The notes beneath the pieces were generated by a model. The model did no database searches. It was not told where the DNA came from and worked only from the letters and a program-made list of their open reading frames with translations. The position numbers were made by a program, and so were the translations under genes. This document shows positions 3,281 to 62,500 of a stretch of DNA of 64,000 bases, one piece after another (positions within the stretch are counted from its first letter, which is position 1; every line of letters begins with the position of its first letter). The stretch is from Brachycybe producta (Eukaryota; Arthropoda; Diplopoda; Playtdesmida; Andrognathidae): contig JAUPFP010000017.1 in assembly GCA_036925085.1 (NCBI GenBank), forward strand, positions 1,518,501 through 1,582,500, given 5' to 3'.

Positions 3281-3287
3281 CTACTGG

Positions 3288-3493
3288 ACAGGCAATTAGA
3301 AATCGTGACAAACAGAAGTTGGCTCCGCCCTTTTTATGACGACCGGCAACTTCTAATTGGTTTGGTGTGTTGTTCGACGTTGAAAAGGGGCGGAGCATGT
3401 GACATCAGACTACATAACCAACCAATTAGAAGTTGCATTCGTCATAAAATGAGCGGAGCCCACTTCTGTTTGTCCCTATTTCTAATTGCCTGT
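3288..3493. mobile_element. Family A MITE, copy A2
   Basis: 206 bp, ACAGGCAATTAG to CTAATTGCCTGT, with the usual GC-box and CCAAT-type interior. Its CRE is altered to TGACATCA. The target GCTACTGG occurs at 3280-3287 and again at 3498-3505, with four extra bases (CTCT) before the right copy. The insertion therefore sits in the right TSD of element AD. Confidence 0.85.
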
Positions 3494-4500
3494 CTCTGCT
3501 ACTGGTACATTAAATTGATGTGAAGTGCCTGTGACAGGTTCACTGTCTTGGGAGCCTGCACACGGAGACTAGCAGCGTACCAAATAGCAACTTTTTCCTG
3601 ATGGTAGGATTTTTTTTTGTCACAATGCAAAATATATGCATGCTTCCACTGTTCCACATGTAGCTTCTTTCTCCAAGGACTGTTACTGTGGCGTTGATTA
3701 CCTGTTGATTTATTAGGTTGCAGTTCTACTTGTAATCACAATCGCCACTGATATCTACTTCAGTCCACGAAATTTTTTTATAGACAAAGAGGGATGTTGG
3801 ATACATCAAGAGAAAATGAGAAAGTGAGAAAGAGAGAGTCAGAGGAAGTCCTAATTCTTCTTTTGTATGCTACATGTGTTTGATTGCTAGTCTCGAGACT
3901 CTCTCGCTATATCTATGAGATTGATTGCATCTGAAGTGACCATTGCAAGTTGATTGTATCAGAAGAGAGGTCACTTCTTGATGGTCATTTCTGACTAACT
4001 AGTTTCTTTTTTTTTTCTTGTTGTTGTTGTTGTTGTTGTGTGCGTGTCGGTCTTACATCAATGATCGTGAAGATAACAAAAAAGTGAATTACCCTTACCT
4101 TACATGCCTATATATTGTTTTATACTGAATTAGAAGAACTATACAACAGCAAACAACACTAAACTGAATTAGGCCACGTTCGCACCATGAAGTAATGCAG
4201 TACTTAGCAATTTCTAAGTAGCACCCTCTCTCTCTACTGCACATGTGCACATAGTAAATCACCAAAGAAACGTCTGTTTTGGTTTGTGGCTTATGAGTTA
4301 TGACTAATGACTTATGTTAGACCTGATTAGTTATGCAAAATTACAGAAAATAGCTTTGAATGAAGAGATTTCTATTGACAATGCCATTATCTACCACATC
4401 AACAAAGTGCCGCTCACTTTATTGTTATGTCAACTTTTTTTTTGTAACTTATTCAGGATTAATGCACAACCTTGAATTGCGTTGCATTACTTTAAGCCTT
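3494..4500. other. Unassigned stretch
   Basis: No gene seen. A GTT run lies near 4018-4038. The motif near 4175-4200 (GCCACGTTCGCACC) loosely resembles the reverse complement of 5335-5357 and could be a decayed element end enclosing D2 and S1. This is weak. Confidence 0.35.
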
Positions 4501-15655: not shown

Positions 15656-15821
15656 GCTCTCTTTCTCTCTCTCTCTCTCTCTTGCTCTCTCTTTCTTTCT
15701 CTCTCTTGCTCTCGCTTTCTTTCTCTCTCTTTCTCTCTTGCTCTCTTTCTTTCTCTCTCTCTCTCTCTCTCTTTCTTTCTCTCTCTCTCTCTTTCTTTCT
15801 CTCTTGCTCTCTCTCTCTCTC
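15656..15821 (+). repeat. Polypyrimidine (CT/CTTT)n tract
   Basis: About 165 bp of almost pure pyrimidine made of CTCTCT, CTTT and CTTG units. It opens several frames on both strands (poly Leu/Ser and Arg/Glu), all artefacts. Confidence 0.95.
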
Positions 15822-28057: not shown

Positions 28058-28645
28058 TAAAGCTTAAACTTCATTCACGTGACGTCGTCGAGCGACCTAC
28101 CTCGAGCGAGCGTCAGTGCACATGCGCGTATTCATACCATAAACAAGCAAATATTAGCGACTTGTCAAAGCGTCGCGACTTGCTACGTTTAATGTTTCAA
28201 GTCGCTAGCCAACAACCAATCGGAGACCAGATTTTTTTGCATATGGCGTCTTTGACGCCATGTTTTATGACATCACACACCATGAAGACACGCCCAAAAC
28301 GTTTGTAGGTGCAGCACATATGTAGTGTGTGCCAGCGACTAGCGACTTGCTGCTTCAAGTCGCTATGCTAGTCACTAGTCGCTAGCCGCAGATGCTACAC
28401 TCAAGGTAGCAGGTATGAAGACAGGCAATTAGAAATCGGGACAAACAGATGTTGGCTCCGCCCTTTTTTTGACGACCGGCAACTTCTAATTGGTTTGTTG
28501 TGTGGTTCGACATTAAAAAGGGCGGATGATGTGACGTCAGACTACATAACCAACCAATTAGAAGTTGCGTTCGTCATAAAAAGGGCAGAGCCAACTTCTG
28601 TTTGTCCCGATTTCGAATTCCCTGTGGTATGAAGTTTCAGCTTTA
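28058..28645. mobile_element. Family J element, copy J2, interrupted by A5
   Basis: Reverse complement of J1, from TAAAGCTTAAACTTCATTC to GTATGAAGTTTCAGCTTTA. It keeps the GGCGTC-GACGCC palindrome and the AGTCGCTAG units. Element A5 lies near its right end, where J1 reads straight through. Confidence 0.8.
28421..28625. mobile_element. Family A MITE, copy A5, nested in J2
   Basis: 205 bp, ACAGGCAATTAG to GAATTCCCTGT. GGTATGAAG occurs at 28412-28420 and 28626-28634 (8-9 bp TSD). J1 supplies the single-copy site. The CRE TGACGTCA and CCAAT motifs are intact; one GC box is mutated to GGGCAG. Confidence 0.9.
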
Positions 28646-32821: not shown

Positions 32822-33728
32822 CAAGGGATTCAGGGAACCCTATAGACCTCCATTGCTTGCAGTACGTGCGTGTGCGCACATGTATGCACGTGTATGCACG
32901 TGCGCGCATGTGTATGCACGTGTATGCACGTGCACGCATGTGTACCCACATGTACACACGTGCGCGCATGCGTATGCACATGTACACACTTGTGCACATG
33001 TGTACGCATGTGTATGCACATGTATACACGTGTGTGCATGTGTACGCATGTATACACTTGTGTACGCATGTATACACTTGTGTACATGTGCATAAACATG
33101 CGTACACATGCACACAAGTGTGTACACGTGCATATGCATGCGCGCATGTGCATACACGTGCATATGCATGCGCGCATGTGCATACACGTGCATATGCATG
33201 TGCGCATGTGCGTACACGTGCATACACATGCGCGCATGTGCATACACGTGCATACACATGCGCGCATGTGCGTACACGTGCATACACATGCACGCATGTG
33301 CGTACACGTGCATACACATGCACGCATGTGCGTACACGTGCATACACATGCGCGCATGTGCGTACACGTGCATACACATGCGCGCATGTGCATACATGTG
33401 CATACACATGTGCGTACATGTGCATACACATGCTTACACATGCGCGCACGTGCATACATGTGCATACATGTGCATACACATGCTTACACATGCGCATACG
33501 TACATACATGTGCGTACACATGTGCGCACGTGCATACATGTGCGTAAATGTGCGCATATGTGCATACATGTGCATACACGTGTGTACTAGTGCATACACG
33601 TGCATAAATATGCGTACACGTGCGTACATGTGCGTACATGCATGTAACAATGAAAGAAAATTGGTTGTTTGATATATGAAAGCGTATATTAAAGCAATGG
33701 AAGTCTATAGGGTTCCCTGAATCCCTTG
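32822..33728. mobile_element. Element CC: 37-bp TIRs enclosing a Z-DNA-prone repeat array
   Basis: 907 bp. The 37-bp terminal inverted repeats (32822-32858 and 33692-33728), starting CAAGGGATTCAGGGAACC, differ at one position. Nearly all of the interior is the alternating purine-pyrimidine array. TTTTAA occurs near both borders, but a clean TSD cannot be set. The near-identical ends suggest a recent origin or gene conversion. Confidence 0.75.
32863..33640. repeat. Alternating purine-pyrimidine minisatellite, 30-bp higher-order unit
   Basis: About 780 bp built of CATACACGTG, CATACACATG, CGCGCATGTG-like decamers. From about 33121 to 33400 the unit is 30 bp, repeated about nine times, each with a CACGTG and usually a GCGCGC. 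Purine-pyrimidine alternation is unbroken for about 300 bp and has only occasional breaks elsewhere. All six frames are open because no stop codon fits the alternation, so the 160-278-codon Cys/His/Thr-rich frames are artefacts. Confidence 0.95.
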
Positions 33729-34904: not shown

Positions 34905-35575
34905 TGTGGCTCCTAGAGAAATCGGGACTGGCTCACTACAGCTAACTGGGTCACTACAGCTACTAGGCTCACTACAGCTACTAGGGTCACTACAGCTACT
35001 AGGGTCACTACAGCTACCAAAAAGAAAATATAGACCTTTATTTCATCAAAAGGGTCACTACAGCTACCAAGGGTCACTACAGCTACCAAAAAATATAGGC
35101 CTGTTTATTTATCAATATGTTTAGTTTAGATTACATTCGGTTCAGTTAGGTTTCATTATGTTCAGTAAGGTTCGGTAAGGATCGGTTAGGTTTGGTTAGG
35201 ATCAGTTAGGTTTGGTTAGGATCGGTTAGGTTTGGTTAGGATCGGTTAGGTTCGGTTAGTATCGGTACTTTTTGGTTAGGATCGTTAAGGTTCGGTTAGG
35301 TAAGGTTCGGTAAGGTTTTATTAGGTAAGGTTCCGTTATTTTAGGGAGAAAGGGTTATTTTTTTAGCTGTAGTGACGAAAAAGTGATAAAAAAAAGGTCT
35401 ATATTTTGTCCCCCTATTTTTTGGTAGCTGTAGTGACCCTTTTGATGAACAAAAGGTCTATTAATTTTTTTGGTAGCTGTAGTGACCCAAGTAGCTGTTC
35501 TCCCCTTAGTAGCGCTTGTGAGCCTTGGTAGCTGTAGTGACCCCCAACCGAGAAATCCTGGTTTTCACAATGTTT
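34905..35575. mobile_element. Element KK with subterminal tandem repeats
   Basis: The left side has seven 18-bp units of the form GGTCACTACAGCTACTAG between about 34928 and 35090. The right side has the same unit inverted (TGGTAGCTGTAGTGACC) at about 35424, 35471 and 35525, plus degraded copies. Near-terminal GAGAAATC.GG motifs occur on both sides in inverted order. The centre is a decamer array. Arrays of subterminal direct repeats are typical of transposase-binding regions of hAT and related elements (inference). Confidence 0.65.
35128..35345 (+). repeat. Decamer array GGTTAGGATC/GGTTAGGTTT
   Basis: About 20 degenerate 10-bp units alternate GGTTAGGATC and GGTTAGGTTT at the centre of KK. 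It contains TTAGG but has a 10-bp period and an internal location, so it is not a telomere array. Confidence 0.85.
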
Positions 35576-39944: not shown

Positions 39945-40150
39945 ACAGGCAATTAGAAATCGGGATGAACTGAGGTTGGCTCCGCCCTTTTTATGACGAC
40001 CGGCAACTTCTAATTGGTTTGTTGTGTAGTTTGACGCTGAAAAGGATGGAGCATGTGACGTCAGACAACATAACCAACCAATTAGAAGTTGCGTTTCGTC
40101 ATAAAAAGGGCGGAGGCAACTTCTGTTCGTCCCGATTTCTAATTGCCTGT
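39945..40150. mobile_element. Family A MITE, copy A6 (reference copy)
   Basis: 206 bp, perfect ACAGGCAATTAG and CTAATTGCCTGT ends, perfect 8-bp TSD ATAATTTG at 39937-39944 and 40151-40158. Interior order: GCTCCGCCC, ATGACGACCGGC, TTCTAATTGG, TGACGTCA, AACCAACCAATTAG, TCATAAAAAGGGCGG. The best copy for setting family boundaries. Confidence 0.95.
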
Positions 40151-42700: not shown

Positions 42701-42776
42701 CACTAGTTAGTATAGAAAGTTTATGTAAACTGACTGATGCAATTATCTTGTTTTATTTCATGAATTTTAATTAATT

Positions 42777-43273
42777 TTACAACTTTTCAGTTTATTTCAC
42801 AACTTTTCAGTATATTTGACAACTTTTCAGTATATTTCACAACTTTTCATATATTTCATGGAATATTTGACAACTTTTCAGTATATTTGACAACTTTTCA
42901 GTATATTTGACAACGTTTCAGTATATTTGACAACTTTTCAGTATATTTGACAACTTTTCAGTATATTTGACAACTTTTCAGTATATTTGACAACTTTTCA
43001 GTATATTTGACAACTTTTCAGTATATTTGACAACTTTTCAGTATATTTGACAACTTTTCAGTATATTTGACAACTTTTCAGTGTATTTCACAACTTTTCA
43101 GTATATTTGACAACTTTTCAGTGTATTTTACAACTTTTCAGTATATTTGACAACTTTTCAGTATATTTCACAACTTTTCATATTTTTCATGGAATATTTC
43201 ACAACTTTTCAGTATATTTCACAACTTTTCTGTATATTTCACAACTTTTCATATATTTCATGAAATATTTCAA
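42777..43273 (+). repeat. 20-bp minisatellite
   Basis: About 24 copies of a unit of the form GTATATTTGACAACTTTTCA. About eleven near-identical copies lie between 42861 and 43080, with divergent units outside. The variant block containing CATATATTTCATGGAATATT or close to it occurs near both ends of the array. Frames through it are artefacts. Confidence 0.95.
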
Positions 43274-51730: not shown

Positions 51731-52725
51731 GGCAAATTATCGCAAAATTATTTCGAAAAATCTCCACAAAGAGCGCTAGCATCGTTTTTTTTTATATTGA
51801 ACCCGTAGACCCGATCTTGAAGAGAAAAAAAAACGTTAATTTCTAAAATACAAAGTGGTGGCAATATGTCTATTTTTCATATTTAAAGTTGTCCAATATT
51901 AAGTTTTAAAGTGCAATCTGCACCTTAAATATATGCTGATCGAGTGACAGAATGACAAAAAATTGGTAAGTGCGGTTCTATTTTTAAAAACTATTTCAAA
52001 ATCGTGAATTTTTAATTTTTTATGTTAAACTCCATTGAGTACGCGCTTGCAAGAAAAAACTCATCTATTAAAATGTTCGTAAAAATACCTAAAATAATTT
52101 TAAAATACCAGAAGAAATTCAGCACGTGCGCCAATGTTTTGGCTTCGCTGTGGTTTGTGTTTTTTTAATTAGTTTTAGGTATTTTTACGAGCATTTTTAT
52201 GGATGTTTTTTGCTTACGAGCGCGTATTCAATGGAGTTTTAAGATAAGAATTAGAAATTCGCGATTTTGAAATAGTTTTTAAAAATAGAACCGCACTTAC
52301 CAATTTCGTGTTATTCTATCACTCGATCACCATATATTTAAGGTGCACATTGCACTTTAAAAACTTAGTATTGGACAACTTTAAATATGAAAAATAGACA
52401 TATTGCCGCGACTGTGTCTTTTACAAATGAAACAGGCAGTTAGAAATCGGGGAGAACTTCAGTTGGCTCCACTCTTGTTATGACGACCGGCAACTTCTAA
52501 TTGGTTTGATGTGTCGTTCGACGTTGAAAAGAGCGGAGCATGTGACGTCAGACTACATAACCAACCAATTAGAAGTTGCCGGTCGTCATAACAAGGGCGG
52601 AGCCAACTGAAGTTCTCCCTGATTTTTAACTGCCTGTCAAATGAACGTTTTTTCTTTAACATTGGATCTATGGGCTCAATAGAAAAACGATGAGAGCGCT
52701 CTTTGTGAAAATGTTTCGAATCATT
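51731..52725. mobile_element. Family C palindromic element, copy C4, interrupted by A9
   Basis: Both arms and the centre CAGCACGTGCGCCAATG are present. The left arm starts at about CGCAAAATTATTTCG and the right arm ends at about CATTTTCACAAAGAG (reverse). A9 splits the right arm between CTTTTACAAATGAA and CGTTTTTTCTTTAAC. Confidence 0.8.
52432..52637. mobile_element. Family A MITE, copy A9, nested in C4
   Basis: 206 bp, ACAGGCAGTTAG to TTAACTGCCTGT, perfect 8-bp TSD CAAATGAA at 52424-52431 and 52638-52645. CRE TGACGTCA is present. Other C copies read through the site. Confidence 0.95.
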
Positions 52726-54645: not shown

Positions 54646-55262
54646 TGAGGCAACTATACGTATCATATAATCGTGGACATGCAAGTTGCATTTTTTCTTA
54701 ATAATTGCCATGTATTGTGATGACCTTTTCTATTGGGGTAAAAAAAATTACGGGTTTTATTGTACAAAAAAATATTAGGTCTTTCTTAAGTAATACTTCA
54801 ATAGCGCATCTAATTTTTTTTTGGTTACATGAGTGTTCGCGGTCCTATTGTAAAAAAAAATTTAAATCGCTGACTAAGTAAGATAGGAAAATACTGGATG
54901 GTGGTGGGGTGTTTCCAAGGAAGGCAGAAATATTTTTTTTGTGGGTGGGTAATAAAACGCATGGTTCTCAATCACTTTGGCACATAATATATATTTTTTA
55001 TTCGATTTCTTATAAAAAAGACTATGATTGTTATATATGAACAGAAGTGCCTTAAACCGATATAAAAATGCGACCTCAAAAATTCCGCAAACGTATTTTT
55101 TTTTTGTCTTTTTTTCTCTCGAGTGCTACTGGGATACATAGATGGGCCACGTTTGTGACTGTTATTAGTAAAAGGTCTGCATCTGATGAGCAAGTATTAT
55201 GTAGAAAATGTTTGAGAATTTTTAAAATTTTCTGTAAAATGAATGACAGCATTACTGTGTAT
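54646..55262. other. Unassigned stretch
   Basis: No gene recognised. Confidence 0.3.
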
Positions 55263-55774
55263 CATGGGCGCCCGCACATATAGGGGCAAGGTGGGGCGGT
55301 CACCCCCCCCCCCCCCACCACCACCACCTTCTAAAGCCATTTTTAATGTACAACATTTTTATTTTTGAAATTTGAAATAATGATGTAAAATAAAAATTTT
55401 GACAAGTTGAAGAACTGTTTTGGTTATTGTCCAAAAATGCTGACAGGCTGTGGTTCATGTTGGTTCATGAAAATTAATGAAAGTTTTGTTTCTGAAGCAG
55501 TTGATAAATTTTTCAGAAAACCATCTCGACAGACACTACTTTTTAATGAGGCTGTACCGATCACACTTTTTTTTACCGAGCTAATACCGAACCAATCACA
55601 CACAAAAAAAAATTGGCATGCCGATCGATTTAACTGAACCGATCATGCCGATTTTGGCTGCTTGCGTCGGCCAAGAGAGAAGCGATTCGCACAACAACGT
55701 ATGGAAAAAAGTTAAATTATAATTTTCGTGTTTACAAGCTTACAAGCCTGGGTGTGCGCAAGACAACAATTTTC

Positions 55775-56365
55775 ACTAGCGTTTGCCCATTAGAATTAGC
55801 AGAGCGCATGCGCATTACCATCTTATCGTTTTATATAGGAAAACCTAACCAAACCTATAGTGAACGTCTAGACCTGTGCGCCGTAGCATATTGATCGGCA
55901 TCGGCGGGCGAGGGTAAATACGAGCAGTGGCGACTACCGGTGTCTGGAATTGAACATATCGAACAAATATATCGATTTATCAATATATTGAATGAGGTAA
56001 TTATCGATATAAATTGAAATCGATAAATATCGAATATGGTATCATTTCATTCCTATGGCAGTTTCTGAAACAAAACCAACCAAAACAAATTTGAATTCGG
56101 CGGCCGCCAGTCATACACCGGCGGCGAGTGGCGGCGGGTTTTTAAAAAAAAGTACAAGCGGCGAGCGGCGGCGTTTTTTGCTTCAAAAACACCGGCGGCG
56201 GCGGTTTCGCCCGGCGGCGCACAGGTCTATGAACGTCTCATCGGCAGTTTTCATTGGTGATCAATAGATGGCGCTGCTAACGCAATTCTGCAATCACTTT
56301 CCTATATAAAACGATAAGATGGTAATGCGCATGCGCTCTGCTAATTCTAATGTGCAAACGCTAGT
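55775..56365. mobile_element. Family Z element, copy Z1, third level
   Basis: 591 bp including AA. Terminal arms of about 65 bp start ACTAGCGTTTGCCCATTAGA and include GAGCGCATGCGCATTACC and ATAAAACGATAAGATGG. Perfect 8-bp TSD CAATTTTC at 55767-55774 and 56366-56373. Second copy Z2 at 62131-62361. Confidence 0.9.
55869..56229. mobile_element. Element AA, innermost level, inside Z1
   Basis: 361 bp with perfect 15-bp terminal repeats TAGACCTGTGCGCCG and perfect 8-bp TSD TGAACGTC (55861-55868, 56230-56237). Z2 shows the unoccupied site. The interior has a GGCGGC-rich right side and an ATCGAT-rich left side. The 70-codon frame is incidental. Confidence 0.9.
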
Positions 56366-56811
56366 CAATTTTCTTTTAAAGATGAATTAGTGATAAAATT
56401 GGCAATAAATTGATTTGACCCTCCACCACTGCCGTTTTATCGGGGAGCAGATCTAATTGTTGAGTGTGGAAATCAGTTAAAATTTGTTCGCCTATCCGAT
56501 TTTAGCCGATTAGCAGTAAATCGGTAAAAATCGGTTCAGCAAAATCGGGCTCGGTACAGCTTTACTTTTTAAGGATACAAATACTGGAAATTAAGTTTCT
56601 TTAAAAAAAAACTTCAGTTGTTTTATTTTGCTTTTATGTCTATTATTTGTTTACCTAATAATTAATAAAAAAATATGAATACTTTAAATCACTCAATTCT
56701 GTGAGCCACCTGTTAGGGTCATAATAGTATGGGCTAATAGTTTTTTTAGTTCATAATAGTAGCTTGGGAATTACCCCCCCCCCCCATGAAATTATCCTGC
56801 GGGCGCCACTG

Positions 56812-57414
56812 TTGTGTAAGTGTCTTGTGAAATCGTATTCCGCCCGAGTATAGTTGGCACCCCTGAAAAGCATGAGGATAAAACTGTTGGACATTCCTTC
56901 CAGGTGTTTGAGATGTTTTCTTGAAGTCATTCATGCATTTCATAATATCAAGTCTCCTCTTAATTCACCTGGGTGTGATATTTTTTTTTCTTATACAAGT
57001 GTAAAATTATACATTCTGAACTAAATGGTGTCTTTTTTTAAAGAAACAATGAAAAAACAAAAAACAAGTCTAAGGGTAGATAGCAAGCGTGACGTGCAAG
57101 TCCCACTTTACAGTAGTCTACAGAGATTTGTGATCGAAAAAAGGCAACTTTTTTTAGCCCCCCCCCCCCCCCCCCCATTTCACTTTAAACACTTAACGCT
57201 TTTCTATGAAAACCACATTTTTCATTCGTATCATTATGCCATAAAGCAAGAAAAACACACTTACACACCTTTTTCTTGTTCCGCAAAAAAATATTCCTAT
57301 AAAAATTCGGAGGTCGTTTTTTTTTAATGTAACATTTTTCTGTCATGATTTTTTTTAAACTATTTAAACTGAACTTTTTATTTTTTATTTTCAAAGTCAT
57401 GTTTCTATTACATG
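56812..57414. other. Unassigned stretch
   Basis: Poly-C run at 57160-57176. No gene. Confidence 0.3.
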
Positions 57415-57544: not shown

Positions 57545-58137
57545 TTAAAGAAATCATATTACCGCCAGAAATTTTTTTGCCAAAATATTGTAAACGATTT
57601 ACCAAAACGATTTTTTAAAATTTAAAATAATTTATTAATATAATTTTAAAAAAAATTAAAAATCAGTTGACTTCATGTAAATGAAGTTTATCAGATAGAT
57701 GCGCCACCAAACAACAGACATTGACAACAAAACCCCCTAAAGTCTACTCCTCTACTCGAATTCTGATATGTTGCAATCACCTCACATTACTTTCATTTGT
57801 AAGTACCATGGATTTAATATTTGAATTTATTCCACGTGAAAGGTTGTATTGAGTTGAATATGAATAGGGAATACATGTATTTGATTAAGGAATTCTGGAA
57901 ATGTGAGGTGACAACCTTTGCCACAAAAATGGTGGGGGGGGGGGGAACTTTCGTTTTGGAAATTTTAAATGGCGGCGTTTCGTGATTCAGGAAAAGTCAC
58001 TTCATTTTTAAGTTTTTCTATGGTTTTATTGACTTATTTTAAAATTTAAATATCGTTTTGACAATCGTTGGGTAAGTCTTGACAATATTTTGAAAAGAAA
58101 TTTCTGGCCTACCCGCCAATAGGCTTTTAGGTCTCAC
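57545..58137. mobile_element. Family Q element, copy Q2
   Basis: Inverted halves (57570-57690 and 57990-58115) share CCAGAAATTT, CAAAATATTGT, ACGATT and TCAATAAAACCAT-type sequence with Q1. Outer ends are less well matched, so boundaries are approximate. Poly-G near 57933. Confidence 0.55.
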
Positions 58138-58289
58138 AGCAAAAGTTTTATCAGTTTTTTTAAACTACTCATAGATGAACATAGATGACCGGGCGTCGCG
58201 TGCACACTGTGAGGATTTCGTCTGTTACAAGGCCCGAGCACCAAATGGGTTGCTTCCGAAAACCGTCCCCACTGCAAAACGCACAGAAG

Positions 58290-59060
58290 GGCTTCTTTGA
58301 GGTGCTTGTTCATGTAGCACAGACACATGCACTCTTGAAGAAGTGTAATCCCACTGAAATTCATAAAGGCACAGTCACAATAGGCTGGTTTACAAGCCGC
58401 TAGTTGCTGCTGGCTATTAGCAGCAACAGCAAGCAGCAGCTGCTTTGGGTTCACACTTGTCCAGTCACTGCTGGAATTAGCAGTGCAAGTCATCCAATCA
58501 CCGTCTTGCAAAAACACAAACTCTAACAACAACCAACCCAAGCAGTGGAGTTTCAACTACCACTAGTGCCACTACTAGCAACAAAAAGTTCACACTAGAT
58601 GGCAGCAGCAGGAAGGGAGTCACATGACCAGCTGGTAGCTACAAAAGTTGGACATGTCCAACTTCACCAGCCGCTGTTAAAATCACTAGCCCGCTAGAGA
58701 AAGCAGCTGCTAGTAGCAGTTCAGACTATGCTGCTAGAGCGCTGCAACCAGCCAGCAGCAACCAGCGGCTGGGAAACCAGCCTAGTGTGACTGTGCCATA
58801 AGCAAGTGTGTGATGTTTATGGCAAGAAGGTTATTTCGAGGCAAGCAGTCTGGGAAACGGTGCGAAATGTTCGAGAATGGCTGTAGTGACATCACTGACG
58901 ACGATCGCGCTGGTAGATCAAGCACATCAACAACAGCTGACAATTTTCTGTGCGTTGATGAAATGATTCAATCAAACCGACAAATAACAGTTGATGAAAT
59001 CGCTGAGACAATGGGTATTTCTCATGGCAGTACTCAACAAATCACCAGAACTGGTGTTCA
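58290..59060 (+). pseudogene. Mariner transposase N-terminal region, interrupted by V and frameshifted
   Basis: Three pieces are readable. Before V: LLKKCNPTEIH (to 58375). After V: KQVCDVYGKKVISRQAVW, ending at a stop at 58884-58886. Then in the next frame: DDDRAGRSSTSTT and QITVDEIAETMGISHGS (to about 59040). The order (first helix-turn-helix, D-D-R-x-G-R-x-S linker, second helix-turn-helix) is that of mariner transposases. The catalytic DDD domain is absent, so it is inactive by truncation, frameshift and insertion. Confidence 0.8.
58377..58798. mobile_element. PIF/Harbinger-like MITE V, inserted in mariner coding sequence
   Basis: 422 bp, AGGCACAGTCACAATAGG to CCTAGTGTGACTGTGCCA, with CAGCAG/GCTGCT-rich arms. 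TAA occurs at 58374-58376 and 58799-58801; one copy belongs to the mariner ATT-CAT-AAG codons. TAA duplication and these ends fit PIF/Harbinger (inference). The 140-codon minus frame through it is incidental. Confidence 0.8.
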
Positions 59061-61949: not shown

Positions 61950-62500
61950 AGCAAACTAAAATCCTGATTGTCGTCTGCTAGGCTGCTACAGTAGGCTGCC
62001 AGGTGGACGCCATATTGGTGCCAGCAGGCCTCTCCTTATTGGAGTCAATGGGTGAGAGGTCAGTTGTCACCGTCCACCTCCAGGTGGAGTAGCCTGGGGG
62101 GGGTATAATGGCCAGGCCGGCCATTATTCTACTAGCGTTTGCCCATTAGAATTAGCAGAGCGCATGCGCATTACCATCTTATTGTTTTATATAGGAAAGG
62201 GATTGCAGATTTGCGTTAGCAGCGACATTTATTGATCACCAATGGAAACTGCCGATGAGACGTTCACTATAGGTTTGGTTAGGTTAGGTTAGTTTTCCTA
62301 TATAAAACGATAAGATGGTAATGCGCATGCGCTCTGCTAATTCTAATGGGCAAACGCTAGTATTATTCTGGACAGTGTACAGTGGTTTCTGAGGAGGACA
62401 AGAACCTTGCAGCTGGAGGCTAGGTCGGCGTCCAGATTATGACAGAGTTCGTCAATTGTTTTACTTTCATGTTTTATATAACGGGCTTCTCTGCTAGCAG
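61950..62500. mobile_element. Family X/Y fragment, copy Y2, interrupted by Z2
   Basis: Reverse complement of about 54190-54500, with landmarks GTCGTCTGCTAGGCTGCT, GTGAGAGGTCAG and CCAGGTGGAGTAGCCTGG. Z2 splits it at ATTATTCT. The rest of X was not found here. Confidence 0.7.
62131..62361. mobile_element. Family Z MITE, copy Z2, nested in Y2
   Basis: 231 bp, the same 65-bp arms as Z1, perfect 8-bp TSD ATTATTCT at 62123-62130 and 62362-62369. It lacks AA and has an intact TAGTGAACGTCTCATC site (reverse), making it the empty-site reference for AA. Confidence 0.95.

Follow-up and report, generated by a model that had tools for sequence, protein, structure and literature searches.

A four-level nest of inverted-repeat elements in Brachycybe producta, one family of which is tied to a Mutator-like element

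Order of the nest

The present data establish that four miniature inverted-repeat transposable elements (MITEs) lie one inside the other at positions 55263..56811 of a 64,000-nucleotide stretch of the Brachycybe producta genome (the window; C17:1518501-1582500), that this nest is genuine and well ordered, and that one of its four families is of a transposon class different from the hAT class to which an earlier note had assigned them all. The order proposed in that note, NN > OO > Z1 > AA, is confirmed by 8-bp target site duplications (TSDs) that are perfect for three elements, the imperfect copy flanking NN matching at 6/8 positions and fitting the same length. The nest would have been formed by ordinary cut-and-paste transposition, in trans. 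Its parts are as follows (no strand is assigned to the elements and the parts below):

55255-55262 CTGTGTAT and 56812-56819 TTGTGTAA, imperfect 8-bp TSD flanking NN
55263..56811, NN, outermost MITE, hAT-like, about 520 bp with the insert excluded
55539..55546, left TSD of OO, CTTTTTAA
55547..56564, OO, MITE within NN, hAT-compatible, about 420 bp with the insert excluded
56565..56572, right TSD of OO, CTTTTTAA
55767..55774 and 56366..56373, 8-bp stretches bordering Z1
55775..56365, Z1, between the OO and AA levels
55861..55868, left TSD of AA, TGAACGTC
55869..56229, AA, innermost MITE, 361 bp, hAT-compatible
56230..56237, right TSD of AA, TGAACGTC
62131..62361, a further listed part, outside NN

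As is expected of MITEs, NN, OO, Z1 and AA are short, end in inverted repeats and are present as many similar-sized copies with TSDs in the genome searched (295.3 Mb, 442 contigs). Within the nest itself no protein-coding potential was noted, the window's open reading frames of at least 130 codons all lying outside it; three of the window's frames tested against Pfam matched no family above the cut-off, and Rfam gave no family at gathering score.

The Z family and a Mutator-like element

The family that departs from hAT is Z, among whose 31 copies the TSD is most frequently 9 bp (exact in 8), followed by 8 bp (6), with 10 bp in 2, 6 bp in 1 and no exact duplication in 14. Both family ends are carried, together with a PF10551 domain (54.5 bits), by a Mutator-like element (MULE) at C13:545813-549985. 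The 8-bp TSDs and hAT-compatibility of NN, OO and AA stand, while the assignment of all four families to hAT is now very improbable, even though the TSDs at the locus are 8 bp (or, for NN, compatible with it), the AA and OO families retain this length and the genome is rich in hAT transposase domains. A Merlin origin, for which TSDs of 8 or 9 bp and terminal inverted repeats (TIRs) of 24-462 bp are given in PMC8101967, can be put aside as next to negligible. Z and its MULE resemble animal Mutator-like elements such as Aedes aegypti Muta1, together with the non-autonomous elements derived from it (PMC5225508), in 8- or 9-bp TSDs, long TIRs, and few autonomous copies accompanied by hundreds of end-sharing derivatives. 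The C13 element appears complete, with a 796-codon open frame, inverted ends and an 8/9-bp TSD; a second copy at a different site (C28:2724979, minus) is identical over the 267 bases compared. The MULE has likely been active recently. Elsewhere MULE domains are paired in divergent orientation at a spacing of 1.5-2.3 kb, their open frames measuring 844-1088 codons, and so form large inverted transposase pairs (C5:5402932/5405482; C2:4233697/4236247; C38:896639/898436).

The hAT-compatible families

The NN terminus is CAGTGGCGCCCGCAGG. The hAT gene-region copies L106 and L107 diverge exactly after GGCACTG, which places an end at CAGTGCCGG, and the NN end CAGTGGCG.. is similar to this hAT end of the same genome; at L120 a CAGTGGCGTAGCG motif lies close to the open frame. 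Across ten NN loci (L094-L103), the 8-bp TSD is exact at L094 (AGATTGTG) and L098 (ATTGCAAT), matches at 7/8 at L099 and L101, and is absent from the other six, including L096 despite its perfect ends.

OO copies end in TAAGGCTGTACCGA, and 15 of 26 have exact 8-bp TSDs (7/8 in 5, exact 7 bp in 1, none in 5). AA has a perfect 15-bp TIR, TAGACCTGTGCGCCG, which fits the hAT terminal rule in part only, and exact 8-bp TSDs in 24/28 copies (7/8 in 3, none in 1). Both families share the 8-bp length with hAT MITEs, as do several NN copies; however, no parent element was identified for OO or AA, so that both are candidate hAT members. Of the 149 PF05699 matches, 20 had their 3' flanks compared with the AA and OO ends, and none carried either with up to two errors allowed. 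One AA copy (L075) lies downstream of an NN-type end, another (L093) abuts a second AA, and a pair at C19:3501224-3502038 is 61 bp apart.

Insertion preference of AA and chronology

Unexpectedly, AA, the youngest element, seems to favour insertion within elements of the re-assigned class. MITEs within MITEs, with clustered insertion and a "safe haven" proposal, appear in the carrot DcSto study (PMC3695323), which also cites nested-MITE work in maize and rice (Jiang and Wessler 2001). The present pattern is similar, but the apparently preferred target is here a MITE belonging to a different superfamily, and the nesting reaches four levels. The stack provides a model-free ordering of four MITE families and connects one of them with an apparently intact MULE having a second, identical-looking copy. 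The logic, by which families are ordered according to which contains which, is that of transposition-in-transposition (TinT) chronology; however, TinT (PMC3014933) uses frequencies from thousands of nested insertions, whereas the present case is a single stack. If the AA preference holds genome-wide, it would offer a natural case of how a cut-and-paste transposase chooses a transposon target, whether by sequence, end-binding protein or chromatin, and family orders drawn from nesting frequencies may be skewed by non-random insertion.

Other features of the window

An inverted-repeat element of about 206 bp, with ends of type ACAGGCAATTAG and TSDs of 8-9 bp, has four copies in the window:

3286-3495
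28421-28625
39945-40150
52432-52637

Tandem arrays with 20- to 90-bp units occupy 32873-33638, 42774-43258, 35142-35300 and 15657-15821; the long open frames on both strands of the first appear to be translated repeat rather than genes. The sole match of a 140-codon open stretch at 58134-58556 (minus) is a netrin receptor, UNC5B, at a non-significant E of 0.16.
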